Position numbers and translations under genes: made by a program | IMG/VR virus record: IMGVR_UViG_3300006917_001358 | Span: 1 to 26,895 of that record | Direction: 5' to 3' (one strand) | Length of the DNA stretch: 26,895 nucleotides | DNA from: a virus | Shown: in pieces, positions 15,779 through 26,895 of the stretch | Layout: every line of letters starts with the position of its first letter | Numbering within the stretch: position 1 is the stretch's first letter | The notes under the pieces: model-generated | What the model saw: the letters and a program-made list of their open reading frames with translations, nothing else | The model's database searches: none | What the model was told of the DNA's origin: nothing

Positions 15779-16225
15779 ATGACTACAGAACTTTTTAGAA
15801 AATATATTGATATTATTAACGAGTCTGCTAATTTAAGTGTAGAACAATTAGCCACCATTAGCGATGAAGCCTTAGACAAAGCATACGGATATGGTCGTAG
15901 CAGTCCAGGCAATACGTTTGGTTGGCAGGCTAATCTTAAATCAGCAGAGTTTGCTAAGAAAGCCATTGAGTCCGGTATCACAGATATCGATCAAATTGCA
16001 GATGCAATACATAAGGGTTGGAATGTTACTGCTAAAGCATTTGTTCAGAACCCGGAACAATTTGATGACACAGAAAAACTCAAAGCAGCCGGCAAACTTG
16101 AAGCAAAACTAGCACAACGTGAAAAATTAATGAATATTAATTATGCTCAACTACCTGATGATGAGCAGGAAAAAGATCGTGTAGTTGCTAGAGTATTATT
16201 ACAGGCGTTGGCAGGTAACAAATGA
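15779..16225 (+). CDS. RyR-domain-like protein with internal-protein-type leader
   Basis: The 148-residue product has an N-terminal leader, MTTELFRKYIDIINE, ending in I-N-E at 13-15, a possible prohead-protease site. The C-terminal half (about 73-145) resembles the RyR repeat found in ryanodine receptors and in many bacterial and phage proteins: an HKGWN segment and then INYAQLPDDEQEKDRVVARVLLQAL split over 119-143, compared with the family's PYxxLPExEKExDR. The function of RyR domains in phages is not known; a ligand-binding role is speculative. It starts 1 nt after the previous stop and overlaps the next start (ATGA). Confidence 0.6.
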   Translation: MTTELFRKYIDIINESANLSVEQLATISDEALDKAYGYGRSSPGNTFGWQANLKSAEFAKKAIESGITDIDQIADAIHKGWNVTAKAFVQNPEQFDDTEKLKAAGKLEAKLAQREKLMNINYAQLPDDEQEKDRVVARVLLQALAGNK

Positions 16226-19048: not shown

Positions 19049-20035
19049 ATGAAAATCGAAAACATTATAAATGAGACAACCGCAGGGGCAACTGCATCAG
19101 GTTCAGTGGCAGCGGTGGCAAAGCCAATGGGCGAAACACAAAAGCGAGGCAAAATGGGACCAAAAGTCTCTGGTTTAGAACCAGCAGGCAAGGTCATGTT
19201 TGGCAAAGCAAAGAAGAAAGGCCCATATACAAATAGCATTAGCGAAAGTGCTATTAAAGAAGATGAACTATCTGAAGAGGATATGTTCTTAATGAGAGCC
19301 GAAAAGCCTAAGGTTTTTGGATTTATTCCTAAAGGCCAAAGTCGTGTAGACCACGAAGTTGAAATGGCACGTAGTGATTTAATACAAGCCATGAAAAATG
19401 CTAAAACAGTCTATGGATTAATTAAAGACCGTAGCGAAGATGAAGGTCTTGAGGGTTGGGTACAAGAAAAGATTATTAAGGCAGCAGATTATCTAAACAC
19501 TATCGCAGAATACCTAGAAGGTAAGAAGATGCAAGAAATGCAGGGTGGCGTCGTAGCCGCAGGTGGTGTTGGAGAAGGCATGGGATCAGGTTCTGTAGGT
19601 TATGACAATGCTAAAGCAATTGCATATGCAGCCAAAGATGGCACAAGTGCTGATGTTAAGTTAGGTGATGACACAGTAACATTAGAATATCCTGAAGCAC
19701 GTTTTGCATATGGTGTTTATAAGCAAGCCGTTAAAGACGGTCGTGTAGATGAAATCATTAAAGTATTCTCAGACCCTATCAAGTTCCACAAGATGATGAA
19801 GAAGATGGGCGATATGCTTTATCGTGACCGTAGTAAAGAAATGGCACAGGCTGCGGCACAACGTATTGGTCAACCAGGTATGATGGAAGGTGCTAAGGTT
19901 GATCGCATGGTACAACACATTAAGAAGTCTGAAATGAAAGCAGGCAAGAGTGCTGACAAAGCAGAAGATATTGCTTGGGCTACTGCAAACAAACGTGGTT
20001 ACTTAGACAATAAGAATAAAAAGAAGAAGGATTAA
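19049..20035 (+). CDS. Modular, probably virion-internal protein with capsid-targeting-like leader
   Basis: The 328-residue product begins MKIENIINE, ending in I-N-E at 7-9, then an Ala/Gly/Thr-rich linker and basic stretches. Further L/I-x-E tripeptides (I64-E66, L74-E76) flank a short acidic region. A helical module spans about 100-160 (MARSDLIQAMKNAKTVYGLI... GLEGWVQEKIIKAADYL). A second lies at about 185-262 (LGDDTVTLEYPEARFAYGVY). A basic C-terminal module (283-328) carries KKSEMKAGKSADKAEDIAWA and ends KNKKKKD. From memory these modules recur in marine T4-like phage proteins. The leader, basic tail and neighbouring polyprotein point to a DNA-associated protein packaged in the head; this is inference. 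Confidence 0.65.
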   Translation: MKIENIINETTAGATASGSVAAVAKPMGETQKRGKMGPKVSGLEPAGKVMFGKAKKKGPYTNSISESAIKEDELSEEDMFLMRAEKPKVFGFIPKGQSRVDHEVEMARSDLIQAMKNAKTVYGLIKDRSEDEGLEGWVQEKIIKAADYLNTIAEYLEGKKMQEMQGGVVAAGGVGEGMGSGSVGYDNAKAIAYAAKDGTSADVKLGDDTVTLEYPEARFAYGVYKQAVKDGRVDEIIKVFSDPIKFHKMMKKMGDMLYRDRSKEMAQAAAQRIGQPGMMEGAKVDRMVQHIKKSEMKAGKSADKAEDIAWATANKRGYLDNKNKKKKD

Positions 20036-20037
20036 TT

Positions 20038-22248
20038 ATGAGTTCTATCATCAAAGGTATAATGTCTGAGTTGAGCCACTCAAATAAATTTGATGAGGGC
20101 GCTAGGCTAAGCGACTCTTATTATATTCCTAGAATTATTGCCGGCGACTTTCCTAAAAATTCTGAAATAACAGTAAGTACCAAAAAACGAGAATCTAAAA
20201 CAGGTAAAACCGTTAGAGATTTTGGACTAAAAATTAACCCTGGATTCTTGCAGACAAAACTTTTTTATAAATTAGAAGATATTAAAACAGTAATTGATTT
20301 AGGTGATGATGTTAGAAACAGAGGACAATCAACCGCCGGTACTTTAGGGAGAGCAGCGGTCGGCGGCCTGACATTTGGAGTAGGAGGCGCGGTAGTAGGT
20401 GGCTTAACTGGAAAAAATGAGTTTGATGAATACGGGGTCTACGGGCTTGTTTTTAACGACGGTAAGAGGGCAAAAATTAAATTTCATAAAGATTCTATGT
20501 TAGGGGAGCAACTTAGTAACTTTCTTAATAAAAAAGTGGATTTGGGTTTCGGTGAGGTGCCTCAAAATAAGAGTAAAAAATCAAATAATGAACCACCAAA
20601 ACAACCCCAACAAACAATTAAAAAGACTACCAATACTGCCGATACAAACATTGCGCCAATCTCACCTACACCTGCAACATCTGCTACCCAAACACCAATA
20701 GCCGCAAATACTACAGTATCCTCACCAAATGTTAATACTGAACTACAAAAAAGATTGGCAGCACGTAAAGCAGGAAAGCCAGTGTACTCAGGTGGACTTG
20801 AAGAGGGTGAAGATAGACAAGCAGAATTAGAAATGGCATTACAAAAAGCCAGACAGATAACTAAACAAATCAAGTATGATGATACTGCTACAGATATTAT
20901 TGTACAAATTCAAATGCTTGCAGAAAAGTTCAATATTGATAAAGATTCACTTGAATCAGCAATTGATGATGTATATAATGCAAAGAATCAATTAGAATCA
21001 GCAGTATATGGATTAGATGAAGTATTTGAAGAGGCACTGCAACAATCACGTTGGGACGATGACGAAATGCTAGATGAGAATCTACGCAAGTGGTTCAAAG
21101 AGAAGTGGGTTCGCTTTGGTCCTGATGGTAAGATTCGTGGTGCTTGTGCTAGAGGTGATGATAGTGAAGGTAAGCCAAAGTGTTTGCCACAAAGTAAAGC
21201 ACATAGTCTAGGCAAGAAGGGTCGTGCAAGTGCTGCCGCACGTAAGCGTAGAGAAGATCCTAATCCAGAGCGTAGTGGCAAGGCTATCAATGTCAATACT
21301 AAGAAAAAGTCAAACGAAGCAGAGTTAGACGAAGCCTGTTGGAAAGGTTACCACAAAGAAGGTAACAAGAAAATGTTTGGCAAAACATATCCTAACTGTG
21401 TAAAAAATACTAACGAAGAACAAGAATTAGATGAAATCAACCGTAGAGGCTTTTTAAAAGGTTTGGGCGCAGCCGCACTAGGTGCTGCTGGAATGAAGGC
21501 ACAAGCACAGACTGATCAAGAGCAAGATTTGGGAGATGGATTTGTTTTAGTGACAATACCTTTTAGAGGCCACACACTCAAGGCAGTATTGGACAAACAA
21601 ACTAATACATATTACACCACTAACCGTAGAGCAGACGGTACAGGTGCTATTATTCGTAGCATGGCTCCTTATATTATGGTACGTGGTGATCAAGCATCCA
21701 CTGCTATGAACGTCGGACCTGCTACTTTGGCTGCGATGAAAAAAGCTGGTCTAGAAACAATGCAAGAAGGTGTGGCGGAAGAACAACTAGACGAAAAGTG
21801 TTGGGACACACATAAGCAAGTTGGTATGAAAAGTAAGGGCGGTAAAATGGTTCCTAACTGTGTGCCAAAAGAAAGCGTTGAAGAGGGTCATCAGCAATGT
21901 CCCGAATGCGGTGGCGCAATGTACGAAGCAGAAATGATGAATGAAAAGAAAGATGCTTGCTACTATAAAGTAAAGAGTCGTTATAAGGTATGGCCAAGTG
22001 CTTATGCTAGTGGCGCACTAGTTAAGTGCCGCAAGAAGGGTGCAAGTAACTGGGGCACTGGTGGTAAGAAAAACGAAGATACTGCATATGCAGGTGGTAT
22101 GGGACAAGGTGGCAATGCTGGACAAAGTTATCGTAAGTATAAAGTAAAACCATCAGGTATAGCACAGGGTATTAGTGAGACAGAAGCAGTCAATCGTAAC
22201 GACGGTGACGGTTGGCATTGGTATGACATAAAACCAGCAGGGAAATAA
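20038..22248 (+). CDS. Modular polyprotein with LDE-linkers (probable internal virion polyprotein)
   Basis: The 736-residue protein contains at least six parts. 1-170: beta-rich domain with a glycine zipper (GRAAVGGLTFGVGGAVVGG, 104-122). 180-250: Pro/Thr-rich linker. 254-345: acidic helices. 348-425: basic Cys-containing module, WFKEKWVRFGPDGKIRGACA onward, recalling DUF5872-like sequences. 433-455: CW...YPNCV mini-module. 467-575: domain preceded by a twin-arginine-like signal, NRRGFLKGLGAAALGAAG. 587-609: second CW...VPNCV mini-module. 612-736: CPECGG knuckle and KVWPSAYASGALVKCRKKGA module. L-x-E sites lie at most borders (256, 347, 432, 466, 586, 714), mostly in NEEQ-x-LDE contexts. The prohead protease of a T4-like phage would be expected to cut there; not proven. 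It starts 2 nt after the previous stop. Confidence 0.65.
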   Translation: MSSIIKGIMSELSHSNKFDEGARLSDSYYIPRIIAGDFPKNSEITVSTKKRESKTGKTVRDFGLKINPGFLQTKLFYKLEDIKTVIDLGDDVRNRGQSTAGTLGRAAVGGLTFGVGGAVVGGLTGKNEFDEYGVYGLVFNDGKRAKIKFHKDSMLGEQLSNFLNKKVDLGFGEVPQNKSKKSNNEPPKQPQQTIKKTTNTADTNIAPISPTPATSATQTPIAANTTVSSPNVNTELQKRLAARKAGKPVYSGGLEEGEDRQAELEMALQKARQITKQIKYDDTATDIIVQIQMLAEKFNIDKDSLESAIDDVYNAKNQLESAVYGLDEVFEEALQQSRWDDDEMLDENLRKWFKEKWVRFGPDGKIRGACARGDDSEGKPKCLPQSKAHSLGKKGRASAAARKRREDPNPERSGKAINVNTKKKSNEAELDEACWKGYHKEGNKKMFGKTYPNCVKNTNEEQELDEINRRGFLKGLGAAALGAAGMKAQAQTDQEQDLGDGFVLVTIPFRGHTLKAVLDKQTNTYYTTNRRADGTGAIIRSMAPYIMVRGDQASTAMNVGPATLAAMKKAGLETMQEGVAEEQLDEKCWDTHKQVGMKSKGGKMVPNCVPKESVEEGHQQCPECGGAMYEAEMMNEKKDACYYKVKSRYKVWPSAYASGALVKCRKKGASNWGTGGKKNEDTAYAGGMGQGGNAGQSYRKYKVKPSGIAQGISETEAVNRNDGDGWHWYDIKPAGK

Positions 22249-22629: not shown

Positions 22630-22766
22630 CACATTTACAAGATGTAAATATGACATACTTTCAACATATGCGTAGGGCATTGACTATAGCAGGAATATTA
22701 ATTGTACACAGTGTTTTTCCAAACGTTTGGAAAACAAAAGCAACAGAATTATTATGTAGAGGATAA
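22626..22766 (+). CDS. 46-residue protein, DUF6356-like
   Basis: A short frame begins in an ATGA overlap with the previous gene and ends 1 nt before the Dps-like start. The product contains MTYFQHMRRALTIAGILIVH (9-28) and FPNVWKTKATELLCRG. This pattern (YFxHMxxAL... FPxVWxxKAxxLL) matches my memory of DUF6356, small proteins of phages and marine bacteria with unknown role. The central part is hydrophobic enough for membrane contact. The tight overlap supports translation. Confidence 0.65.
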   Translation: MTHLQDVNMTYFQHMRRALTIAGILIVHSVFPNVWKTKATELLCRG

Positions 22767-22767
22767 C

Positions 22768-23211
22768 ATGCTAGCAGAAGCATTAAAAACATTATTATCA
22801 ACAAGTTATGCGTTTGTAATTAAAGCGCAACACTTTCATTGGAACGTTGAGGGTCCTAACTTCCCGCAATACCATAAATTCTTCGGTGACATTTATGAAG
22901 AAGTATACGGTAATGCTATAGACCAAACAGCAGAATATATTAGAACACTAGATAGTTACACACCTGGTAGCATGCGTAGATTTAGTGAACTATCAGTGAT
23001 AGAAGAACAGCCTATGATTCCACGTGCTGAACTCATGTTACAAGAACTAGAAGTAGATAATCAAAAAGTTCTTGAATTACTTAACAACTGTTTTGAACAT
23101 GCTGAGGCAGAAAACAAGCAAGGTATCGCTAATTTTATTGCAGAGCGTTTAGATGCACATGAAAAGCATGGTTGGATGTTACGTAGCACACTTAAAAAAG
23201 CCAGAGCATGA
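22768..23211 (+). CDS. dps: Dps-like ferritin (DNA-protection / iron storage)
   Basis: The 147-residue product starts at an ATG preceded by AGAGGA; a longer upstream frame is only an overlap with the previous gene. It has the Dps four-helix pattern: HFHWNVEGPNF (22-32), H36, D41, YEE (43-45) and D52..AE56. Of the usual inter-subunit ferroxidase ligands, H24, H36, D52 and E56 appear kept. The Asp normally four residues after the second His is Gly here, with an Asp one place later. Dps oxidises Fe(II) with peroxide, stores iron and shields DNA. Its stop overlaps the heme oxygenase start (ATGA), tying iron release to storage. Confidence 0.85.
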   Translation: MLAEALKTLLSTSYAFVIKAQHFHWNVEGPNFPQYHKFFGDIYEEVYGNAIDQTAEYIRTLDSYTPGSMRRFSELSVIEEQPMIPRAELMLQELEVDNQKVLELLNNCFEHAEAENKQGIANFIAERLDAHEKHGWMLRSTLKKARA

Positions 23212-23744
23212 CAATACTAAGAGAAGCAACACACGATAAGCATCGTGAAGTAGAAGCACTGCCTATGATTCAGGCTATAATGAAGGGTCCTACTTTTGAC
23301 CAATATGTCTCATATCTATATGAATTAAAAGAAATTTATAGAGTGATAGAGTTGGCTGCGAGAGGTGCAGATATTCTTAAAGATTTACCTGGCATAGAAC
23401 GCTATGATGCTATAACCGAAGATTTAAATGATTTAAACAATAACTATACAAGAGAGTTGATGCCCGGCACTAAAAAGTATATAGATCATATATGGGCAAC
23501 AGCGTATCATAATCCACATTTATTATTAGCACATGTCTATGTAAGACATATGGGCGATTTATATGGTGGTAAGTTAATGGCTAGAGTAGTCCCGGGTGCA
23601 GGCAGAGCATATAAATTTGAAGATAGACCCGGTATCATCAAAGCATTCAATGAGAAACTAACAATGGATTTGGCTGATGAGGCCAATCTAGCATTTGACT
23701 ATTTCATACAGATTTTTGACGAGTTGTATAAGAGTCAAAACTAA
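23208..23744 (+). CDS. ho1: Heme oxygenase (HO-1 type)
   Basis: The 178-residue enzyme has the alpha-helical heme oxygenase fold. It carries the N-terminal LREATHDKHREVEAL (4-18, proximal His at 12) and the distal-helix motif GDLYGGK (116-122), matching GDLSGGQ of HO-1, including the conserved Asp. It cleaves heme to biliverdin, CO and Fe(II). In cyanophages ho1 accompanies bilin reductases (pebS, pcyA); none is visible here, so iron release from host heme is a better guess. It is co-translated with the Dps-like gene. Its LRE at the N-terminus is part of the enzyme family's normal sequence, not a leader. Confidence 0.88.
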   Translation: MTILREATHDKHREVEALPMIQAIMKGPTFDQYVSYLYELKEIYRVIELAARGADILKDLPGIERYDAITEDLNDLNNNYTRELMPGTKKYIDHIWATAYHNPHLLLAHVYVRHMGDLYGGKLMARVVPGAGRAYKFEDRPGIIKAFNEKLTMDLADEANLAFDYFIQIFDELYKSQN

Positions 23745-23750
23745 TAAATA
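23743..23750 (+). promoter_or_regulatory. Late-promoter-like box AATAAATA, 5 nt before the start codon
   Basis: Seven of eight matches to TATAAATA. It overlaps the heme oxygenase stop codon, and TATGT (5 nt) separates it from the ATG at 23756. Transcription is predicted to start on the ATG. No ribosome site. Confidence 0.55.
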
Positions 23751-23755
23751 TATGT

Positions 23756-24958
23756 ATGAGAGCCAGCGAATTTACCAGTAAATTAAATGAGAGCATGCTG
23801 ATTACAGATGTTCCCAATGAGGATTGGCTGGCTGGAAAAGTTGAATACGCAAAAAGCAGAGGTCGTGATAGTTATGGTGTACCATATATGGGATCAACAA
23901 CTGGTATTGTAAGACCTGAACCTAAACTACCTGTGAGTCTTTTAAAAAGACTACCTGGCATGCGCGGTGAACAACGCAATGTCAGAGAAAAAGACTTAGA
24001 AGCCATAATGAAAATAATGAAAGACACAGGTAAACTTCCATTAAGGCAAAATGGTCAAGAATATGCACCCTTCGTTATGGTGGCCTATAATGGCGAAGCC
24101 TGGGTCAATGAAGGTAATCATCGTATCATGGCTGCGGCTGCATTAGGATGGGACGAATTACCAGTAGAGTTAAAGTATTTTGATGGTGGTGAACGTGTTA
24201 AATCAGGTCCATTATACCCAGATAAGATAGGCTTAACACATCCTAAACCCGGCTCTACTGTTGTAATTAATGAAGTAGATGTAGACGAAGCAGAATCAGG
24301 AACTCCTGAGGCAAAGAAAATCACACAACAACTTAAGGATGCTGGGTATAAACAATTAGGTAGTGGTGCCGACGCAACCGTGTGGAGTAAGGATGAGGGG
24401 CAAGTGATAAAGGTCATTATGCCTGATAGTAAAGATATTACACAAGCCGCATATGTATTTAAAAAGTTCTATGAGTTTTGCACACAACATAAAGACTTAG
24501 CATGCTTACCAAAATTTATACCGATACAAGGTAGAGACTATGTAGAATTTAAATTAGGTAATAAGAATTACATACAGGTTAGTATGGAGCAACTGTATCC
24601 TATTAAAGAAGATAGTTTTGCACAGGGTATAGTTTGGTTCTTTAGTGATTATGTATCCAATGGTGTTAAGTGGGACAAAGTTGATGATTTGTTAGGATAC
24701 CCGCAAACATGGTATGAGTTCCATACTAATAAGGCAAATCAGTTTGCAGAAAAATGGCAAAATTTATCAATGATAAAAGGTAATGAAAGAAAACATTCAG
24801 AGATGCAACTACTATACACAGTAATGGAATTGTTATATAGAACAGGTAAGATTAATAAAATGTTTTGGGACTTGCATACTGACAATGCTATGCAACGTAA
24901 AGATGGTACTATAGTTATCATTGATCCATGGTTTGAAAGATATGAGGGAACATTATGA
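23756..24958 (+). CDS. ParB-like / protein-kinase-like fusion with internal-protein leader
   Basis: The 400-residue product begins MRASEFTSKLNE (L-N-E at 10-12). Residues 75-145 resemble a ParB/sulfiredoxin-like fold with NEGNHRIMAAAALGW (118-132). A V-V-I-N-E tripeptide site (171-173) lies in the linker. Residues 195-400 look like a protein/aminoglycoside-kinase fold: Gly-rich loop LGSGADATVW (201-210), possible ATP Lys K219, catalytic loop WDLHTDNAM (371-379) and metal-binding D390 in IIDPW. T4 packages Alt and T7 makes the gp0.7 kinase, both acting on host proteins; a packaged kinase would be comparable. Activity and targets are inferred. The start lies 5 nt after a late-type box. Confidence 0.7.
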   Translation: MRASEFTSKLNESMLITDVPNEDWLAGKVEYAKSRGRDSYGVPYMGSTTGIVRPEPKLPVSLLKRLPGMRGEQRNVREKDLEAIMKIMKDTGKLPLRQNGQEYAPFVMVAYNGEAWVNEGNHRIMAAAALGWDELPVELKYFDGGERVKSGPLYPDKIGLTHPKPGSTVVINEVDVDEAESGTPEAKKITQQLKDAGYKQLGSGADATVWSKDEGQVIKVIMPDSKDITQAAYVFKKFYEFCTQHKDLACLPKFIPIQGRDYVEFKLGNKNYIQVSMEQLYPIKEDSFAQGIVWFFSDYVSNGVKWDKVDDLLGYPQTWYEFHTNKANQFAEKWQNLSMIKGNERKHSEMQLLYTVMELLYRTGKINKMFWDLHTDNAMQRKDGTIVIIDPWFERYEGTL

Positions 24959-25335
24959 AAATTAGCGAGTTATTAAGAGAAGGCAAATTTGATCCTGACT
25001 TTGACGATCAGGAAGAAGTTCCTGCTGATCCAGACAAAGATAAGGTACCACACTTAGTCATGCAACTTAGAAAAGCATTTGACGTAGATGGTAATTATCC
25101 TATACTCTTTAGAGACAATACTAAAGCAAAATTGTCTATGGATGAGATTGTAGGATTCTTAAAAACATATATGAGTCTTAAACCATTAGAAAGAGAACAG
25201 ATGCAAGATATGGCTGCTAATAGTAAAAAAGATTTCATGCAGTCTATAACTAGTTTTAAGAAAACTATGGCACCTGTGCAGAAAATAAAAGGTGATAGAT
25301 ACATGTCACACTTTGCAGGAGATTTAGACAAATGA
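24955..25335 (+). CDS. Small acidic/helical protein with internal-protein leader
   Basis: The 126-residue product begins MKISELLREGKF, with L-R-E at 7-9, the same place as in two other leader genes in this window. The rest is acidic near the N-terminus (DPDFDDQEEVPADPDKDK) and then helical and basic. I do not recognise the family. It starts in an ATGA overlap with the kinase-like gene, with GAGGGA upstream, and its stop overlaps the nuclease start. It is a candidate virion-internal protein. Confidence 0.65.
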   Translation: MKISELLREGKFDPDFDDQEEVPADPDKDKVPHLVMQLRKAFDVDGNYPILFRDNTKAKLSMDEIVGFLKTYMSLKPLEREQMQDMAANSKKDFMQSITSFKKTMAPVQKIKGDRYMSHFAGDLDK

Positions 25336-25937: not shown

Positions 25938-26895
25938 ATGATAAAAAAGATCCTTGTGTTGGCTATAGTTACTGCCTTTATGGGCAGTGTGCCAGCATAT
26001 TCACAAACTACAAACACTAGTACGCAAAGTACAACCGGTGGAACAACTACAAGTACAACAACTCCTATCAACCAAGGAGGTTACACAAGCACCTCTTTAG
26101 TTGATACGAACAGCACTAGCAACAGTACCAGTAGTGTTAACACTACAAATATGACTACTACTAACAATAATAGTACTAGTATGAGTACAGTTAATAGTAC
26201 CAATAATAACAACAATACTAGCACTAGTACCAATGTCAATACCAACAATAATATTCAAAGTGGTACTGTCACTAATATTAACCAAAATACTAATAATGGT
26301 ACTATGACATATAATAACAATAATGTTAATAGTGGTACTGTAACTTATAACAATAATAACAATAATGTCAATACTGGTACTATGACATATAATAACAATA
26401 ATGTTAATAGTGGTACTATGACATATAATAACAATAACAATACGACAAGCACTAACACTAACAATAACGTGATGAGCGGAACCGTTACGTATAATAACAA
26501 TAATGTTTCTACTAACACTAACCACAATATCAATAGTGGTACTCAAACATTTAATAATAACAACGTAAGTACAAGTAATAGTAGAGCCGAAGTTATTAAC
26601 AGCGGCACACAAACATTTAACAACAATAATGTGAGTAGTTCTAACAATACTAATAATAACGTGAACACTAATGTTAATACTGGAGACATGACAAATCGTA
26701 ATATCAATACAACTACATCAAATAACGTAAACACAAATAACAACACTAGCAGTAATACTAACGTTAATATTCAGCAAGGTGAGATGACTAACCGCAATAT
26801 CAATGAAACAACTGTTACGCAGAAAGTCATTCAACCACCACCAACAGCAATCGCTCCGCCTATGATGAGTGTGGGTAGCGATCTTTGCGTAACAG
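25938..26895 (+). CDS. Secreted Asn/Thr/Ser-rich repeat protein (3' truncated by window)
   Basis: An open frame from the ATG at 25938 runs without a stop to the window end (319 codons visible). It starts with a Sec signal peptide, MIKKILVLAIVTAFMGSVPA, followed by YSQ. About 250 residues then consist almost only of Asn, Thr and Ser, with about ten repeats of the type (S/T/N)-G-T-(V/M/Q)-T-(Y/F)-NNNN-V. After a Pro-rich hinge (IQPPPTAIAPPMM) a new segment begins, GSDLCVT, probably the start of a folded Cys-containing C-terminal domain of a kind I recall in aquatic phages. It likely forms a beta-rich fibrous secreted or surface product. AGGGA precedes the start. The long minus-strand frames here are artefacts of the repetitive codons. 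Confidence 0.75.
   Translation, partial: MIKKILVLAIVTAFMGSVPAYSQTTNTSTQSTTGGTTTSTTTPINQGGYTSTSLVDTNSTSNSTSSVNTTNMTTTNNNSTSMSTVNSTNNNNNTSTSTNVNTNNNIQSGTVTNINQNTNNGTMTYNNNNVNSGTVTYNNNNNNVNTGTMTYNNNNVNSGTMTYNNNNNTTSTNTNNNVMSGTVTYNNNNVSTNTNHNINSGTQTFNNNNVSTSNSRAEVINSGTQTFNNNNVSSSNNTNNNVNTNVNTGDMTNRNINTTTSNNVNTNNNTSSNTNVNIQQGEMTNRNINETTVTQKVIQPPPTAIAPPMMSVGSDLCVT
26255..26640 (+). repeat. Degenerate tandem repeats encoding G-T-x-T-Y-NNNN-V
   Basis: Imperfect direct repeats built around GGTACTATGACATATAATAA lie in the Asn-rich gene with variable spacing of roughly 36-60 nt. They are in frame and translate to the repeat unit, so they are coding repeats, not a CRISPR array or integration site. Confidence 0.75.

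Follow-up and report, generated by a model that had tools for sequence, protein, structure and literature searches.

The gene at 23756-24958 of the window probably encodes an internal head protein of the T4 type, made up of a short leader, a ParB-like domain and a protein kinase domain, in this order. The window is the whole stretch of DNA that was analysed, a viral fragment of 26,895 bases. We estimate a probability of about two in three that the protein is packaged, trimmed, probably cut at the border between its domains, and injected with the DNA. In this pathway the 12-residue leader, acting as a capsid targeting sequence (CTS), would take the polypeptide into the prohead core. A prohead protease of the gp21 type would cleave off the leader behind LNE and probably make a further cut in the domain border at VDE/A, perhaps at INE/V (a slash marks a predicted cut). 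Within the head, the border cut would yield two products, the ParB-like part with about 165 residues and the kinase with about 222, which match in size the separate leader-tagged genes of relatives. Both parts would enter the cell along with the DNA, where the kinase, a member of the T7 gp0.7 group, could phosphorylate host proteins ahead of any phage gene expression, with the ParB/sulfiredoxin (Srx) domain as a nucleotide-dependent DNA-binding or nicking partner. The features are the following.

23756..24958, + strand: whole gene with leader, ParB-like domain and kinase domain, 400 aa; ATG at 23756, stop at 24958.
23756..23791, + strand: leader MRASEFTSKLNE (residues 1-12), a putative T4-type capsid targeting sequence with the cleavage-type site LNE/S.
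23804..24253, + strand: predicted ParB/sulfiredoxin-fold domain, with the invariant EGNHR at 24110-24124.
24263..24295, + strand: domain border, VINEVDVDEAE, which contains the two [LIV]xE sites INE/V and VDE/A, the latter conserved.
24281..24955, + strand: predicted T7 gp0.7-like protein kinase domain; Gly loop at 24356-24373, K219, WDLHTDN at 24866-24886, IIDPW at 24917-24931.
23743..23750, + strand: AATAAATA, which differs from the T4 late promoter TATAAATA at one position; 5 nt separate it from the ATG.
24955..25335, + strand: next gene, 126 aa, with a leader-like start (MKISELLREG); it still adjoins the fusion gene in the relatives L002/G001.
19049..20035, + strand: candidate internal protein, 328 aa, starting MKIENIINE/TT, proposed from a weak leader similarity in the sequence; no PHROG match was found for it.
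20038..22248, + strand: mosaic of short modules, 736 aa; the modules recur in proteins of cyanophages, among them the virion-detected S-CREM2 ORF160.

Directly upstream of the kinase gene, a ferritin-like (Dps-type) gene is followed by a heme oxygenase gene (22702-23744; Pfam E-values 1e-22 and 3e-17). At the other end, 25938-26895 encodes a repetitive, extremely Asn/Thr-rich protein with a signal-peptide-like start that runs off the contig.

The initial annotation had described a kinase-type Gly loop and a DLHxxN/IDP catalytic core behind a ParB-like domain. All the motifs it named are in the ORF where it had placed them: INE at residues 171-173, LGSGAD at 201-206, WDLHTDN at 371-377 (D372) and IIDPW at 388-392 (D390). 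In an alignment of 37 sequences, G204, D372, N377 and D390 are found in every one (37/37) and K219 in 36/37. The annotation had regarded a loss of D372 or D390 in homologues as an argument against a kinase; both are invariant.

It had also proposed comparing the predicted structure with kinase folds, and the model (pLDDT 81.6) does have one. The N-lobe consists of strands and a helix, and the helical C-lobe ends just after the IDPW metal-binding motif. Among its best matches in a viral fold library are T7 gp0.7-type protein kinases from Enterobacter, Pantoea, Pectobacterium and Yersinia phages. Against the PDB the matches ranked first by VIA-align are protein kinases, and kinases of eukaryotes are matched too, with Z-scores of 8-9, up to 9.1, and an rmsd of 3.7 over 139 residues. 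According to the model, the C-terminal domain is almost certainly a kinase fold and, with its catalytic residues invariant, very likely an active protein kinase. The best PDB matches by E-value in Foldseek include APH enzymes (aminoglycoside kinases), as would fit a small-molecule phosphotransferase of the aminoglycoside/choline kinase type instead of a protein kinase. This is improbable, given that the phage relatives by both sequence and fold are gp0.7-like protein kinases, that VIA-align puts protein kinases first, and that the model, ending where it does, is without the small-substrate-binding lobe of APH.

Sequence profiles place the domain in the gp0.7 kinase family. In the PHROG profile comparison, residues 171-391 are covered by a match to phrog_15752, the family of the T7 gp0.7 kinase, with an E-value of 4.6e-12. 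A profile built from the 37 kinase relatives recovers the gp0.7 kinases of two Berlinviruses; T7 gp0.7 itself did not pass this search, only its relatives did. No Pfam or NCBIfam family scored above its cut-off with the 400-aa protein, and a PDB sequence search with it gave no match; Kinase-PolyVal (PF18762) reached 16.8 bits (E 0.007), below its Pfam gathering score of 27. The window kinase and T7 gp0.7 share the LG(S/N)G loop, VIKV, D(L/M)HxxN(A/I)M and (I/T)DP, and both are without an activation segment or lower C-lobe. The region for shutoff of host transcription, C-terminal in T7 gp0.7, is absent from the ORF, which ends 8 residues after IDPW, and we therefore class the domain as a relative of the gp0.7 kinase domain and not as a gp0.7 orthologue.

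The ParB-like domain named in the initial annotation was recovered as an N-terminal ParB/sulfiredoxin fold by structure prediction (pLDDT 90.8). All the top PDB matches are sulfiredoxin, Noc, ParB, SbnI or free serine kinase, with Z-scores up to 7.4 over 84 residues. The EGNHR motif (residues 119-123) is invariant in 45 sequences of the domain, so that both the fold and the G-x-H/x-R nucleotide motif of the superfamily are present. Nucleotide binding is a safe prediction from this membership. The same ParB-like domain is found near the N-terminus of an uncharacterised 1185-aa protein of Dolichospermum phage Dfl-JY45, a cultured cyanophage (L208:7698-11255).

The leader resembles the capsid targeting sequences of T4. 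In the leader comparison, T4 ipII and ipIII start with MKTYQEFIAE/A and ipI with MKTFKEFTSTTTPVSTITE/A (MKTFKEFTST...ITE). The window protein, with EFTSKLNE, has a form longer than is typical of its family, and it is nearest to ipI rather than to ipII/III. It has the general character of such leaders, i.e. 10-20 N-terminal residues with an F[IL]xE-like end before the predicted cut. The first ten residues of T4 IPIII are enough for targeting, for which residues 4 and 7 matter most, while 8 and 10 matter most for processing (PMC9026906). T4 IPI-IPIII and Alt have, like the window gene, a short M-K/R-x-x-(x)-E-F-I-x-E leader and an [LI]xE cut-type site followed by a small residue. Among T-even phages the internal defence proteins are diverse and only the CTS is conserved (PMC3012670).

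The same arrangement of one leader before unrelated bodies is seen here. On the contigs of relatives, M[KR]xxEF[ILVMT]xE heads 119 non-redundant proteins, whose unrelated bodies fall into 29 clusters, and in G009 the leader-tagged genes are arranged in a row. The initial annotation had stated that the gene shares its leader with other candidate internal proteins. This is very strongly borne out in the relatives and only loosely inside the window, where the leader-like starts are MKISELLREG at 24955, MKIENIINE at 19049 and MTTELFRKYIDIINE at 15779. The bodies differ from those of T4, where each IP is one small protein and Alt an ADP-ribosyltransferase; here they are ParB/Srx and kinase domains, and several modules may share one leader. 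Alt-type ADP-ribosylation was taken up as an analogy only.

T7 gp0.7 is an early protein, and the window gene could likewise be an ordinary early gene expressed after infection, its leader being a translational or recombinational hook and not a packaging signal. The leaders mark recombining modules and could thus be seams of gene shuffling, and late-promoter boxes are not specific to leader-tagged genes (3/16 against 78/617, not significant). Against this, the codons of the leader vary synonymously among the tagged genes while the peptide is conserved, so that selection acts on the peptide. Further, the leader matches the T4 CTS and marks cyanophage enzymes detected in virions, and a late-promoter-like box precedes the window gene. 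T7 0.7 has a C-terminal shutoff region and no leader, whereas the window kinase is preceded by a leader and a ParB domain. We consider expression as an ordinary early gene very unlikely.

As to the boxes themselves, [AT]ATAAATA occurs at six window sites, including 8501, 12241, 18990(-) and 23743, mostly just upstream of ORFs and very near the start codon. Four of the six copies lie within 40 nt upstream of an ORF (p 4e-6, uncorrected for A+T-rich gaps), and the box is enriched there in 3/4 relatives too. The placement suggests late promoters of the T4 type whose mRNAs have a very short 5' leader or none.

Virion proteomes of cyanophages provide a second line of evidence for packaging. In S-CREM2, a SAM hydrolase, an APH-like kinase, a cytidylyltransferase and a Cas9-like nuclease were reported as non-structural virion proteins, with the authors' caution that abundant proteins could merely co-purify (PMC10665884). 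The first three begin with MKDFDSFLEE, VKRFDAFLTE (the kinase, ORF14) and MKNFSSFLTE. The strict leader is present in 4/52 detected and 0/167 undetected S-CREM2 proteins (p 0.003), for a motif chosen after inspecting the sequences, and for this reason further cyanophage cases were examined. The virion-detected kinase of S-CRM01 begins with MISFDQFLSE, and the cytidylyltransferases of five cyanophages with MKSFSQFLTE, MKSFFQFLSE, MKKFSAFLTE, MKKFSAFLNE and MRFRQFIIE. Experiments have placed the cytidylyltransferase cluster, T4-GC190, among the virion proteins (PMC3037559). The virion-detected kinases (S-CREM2 ORF14 and the PKN8-like kinase of S-CRM01) are similar to the window kinase in belonging to T4-like phages and carrying a CTS-like leader; they differ in being larger proteins of another family (APH/PKN-like) without a ParB domain. 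Taken with the resemblance to the T4 CTS, these cases make packaging of the window protein in the head likely, while it is only from the leader that we infer injection with the DNA. Host takeover by phosphorylation, drawn by analogy with T7, is a tentative step with slightly less than even odds.

The Cas9-like protein of S-CREM2 (OR473000 7704-10313(-), L213) has an internal CTS-like LRFASFMAE/A at about residue 17; a head-packaged nuclease would be an interesting find. ORF160 of the same phage has modules in common with the window ORF 20038-22248, in which short Cys-containing modules are split by [LI]xE/[LI]DE motifs (e.g. ELDEACWKGYHK, EQLDEKCWDTHK and QGVAEEQ). Modules of this ORF are common to 369 phage records, nearly all of them cyanophage or marine.

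The kinase and ParB domains are independent modules. In viral contigs, 55 different kinase ORFs were identified, together with about 60 different sequences of the ParB domain, and the kinase domain is present in more than 50 distinct contigs. The nearest relative, L002, has 79% identity and the same two-domain architecture. In other relatives, either module is joined to GNAT, an AAA/zeta-toxin domain or others. No kinase relative was found among 84,980 genomes of bacteria and archaea, and within that collection a kinase family derived from hosts or prophages is accordingly unsupported. Cultured phages gave only partial, weak matches to the full 400-aa protein and no match to a GNAT+ParB relative. 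One leader-tagged protein of 1092 aa has an AAA/zeta-toxin-like domain (E 1.6e-9) before the ParB module (L082:939-4214). Two other large proteins (L006:1712-5584 and L015:2812-6159; 1291 and 1116 aa) start without the usual leader, with an N-terminal domain (MTRTPGEYVYHAGYLPRGLESVKSKGLIPS...) followed by ParB, a GNAT-like stretch and kinase.

The border between the modules has the character of a protease site. The initial annotation had pointed to an I-N-E at the domain border; this is present, but it is not conserved, as L002 has MNVDEGVVDEAE there, and INE was dropped as the main cut site for this reason. The conserved element is VDE/A (residues 176-179), in the family form [LIVM]xEA. Where a kinase or ParB module starts inside a longer protein, [LIVM]xE is found in 30/32 and 27/27 non-redundant cases, 57/59 together, compared with 20% of random 18-residue windows. 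With P1 as the anchor, about three quarters of the cases have an aliphatic residue at P3, a preference not seen at P2 and P4, and A, G and S predominate at P1'. The motif is retained beside many unrelated upstream modules, and in both the kinase and the ParB model the border residues sit in stretches of low confidence, which are probably flexible; constraints of the fold thus explain the motif poorly. The border motifs could instead be part of the domain start, or relics of fused leaders and not live cut sites, and such relics are possible at some borders. Among the large relatives searched, gp21 and gp23 were found in G003, G006, G011 and G015, arranged as in T4 in both of the genomes read for gene order (G003 and G011); neither was found in the window, a fragment of 26.9 kb.

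A packaged and leader-trimmed protein could also stay uncut at the border, as a two-domain enzyme whose ParB-like part brings the kinase to DNA-bound host targets, e.g. RNA polymerase. A functional pair is suggested by the fusion of the two domains in 8/55 distinct kinase ORFs, with ParB within 6 kb in 10 more. Yet in L016-L019 each part has a tagged gene of its own, with the size of the predicted cut product: a 224-aa kinase that begins with MRANEFAVDEAA and, immediately after it, a 158-aa ParB protein that begins with MRAKEFITEG. The border motif is also kept next to unrelated modules in a stretch where the models lose confidence. An uncut enzyme is unlikely; from the sequence pattern, cutting of the window protein at its domain border is moderately probable.

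The initial reading of the gene as a packaged kinase is supported; it had overlooked the general shuffling of leaders and modules with protease-type borders, and also that virion kinases were already reported in cyanophages. The window protein further resembles the polyvalent proteins, in which kinase, ParB and GNAT are among the disparate domains of one injected polypeptide that needs processing (Iyer et al. 2017, PMC5512222). Two disparate domains, ParB and kinase, are present in one phage polypeptide here, and relatives add GNAT and zeta-toxin/AAA. In the polyvalent proteins a built-in MPTase was proposed for the processing, whereas here the sites between modules are of the prohead-protease type. 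Virion kinases in T4-like cyanophages, CTS-led internal proteins and polyvalent injected kinase/ParB proteins are each known separately. New, as far as the sequences indicate, are a T7-type kinase in a packaged role and the processing of modular effectors by the prohead protease. In the literature searched, no paper connects modular effectors with CTS leaders and prohead-protease sites, an absence that is weak evidence.

For aquatic T4-like and jumbo phages in general, the chances appear evenly balanced that they carry modular cargo, in which one leader serves a string of unrelated effectors, the maturation protease cuts the [LIVM]xE seams in the head, and new effectors are gained by recombination at the seams. 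If the reading of the window gene is right, a T7-type kinase sits in the virion instead of in an early operon, and there would be a second route, besides built-in MPTases, to process polyvalent effectors. The leader would also be a simple sequence handle to predict which unknown proteins of abundant aquatic phages are delivered by injection at the very start of infection, a prediction that is testable at once in the cultured cyanophages with published virion proteomes.
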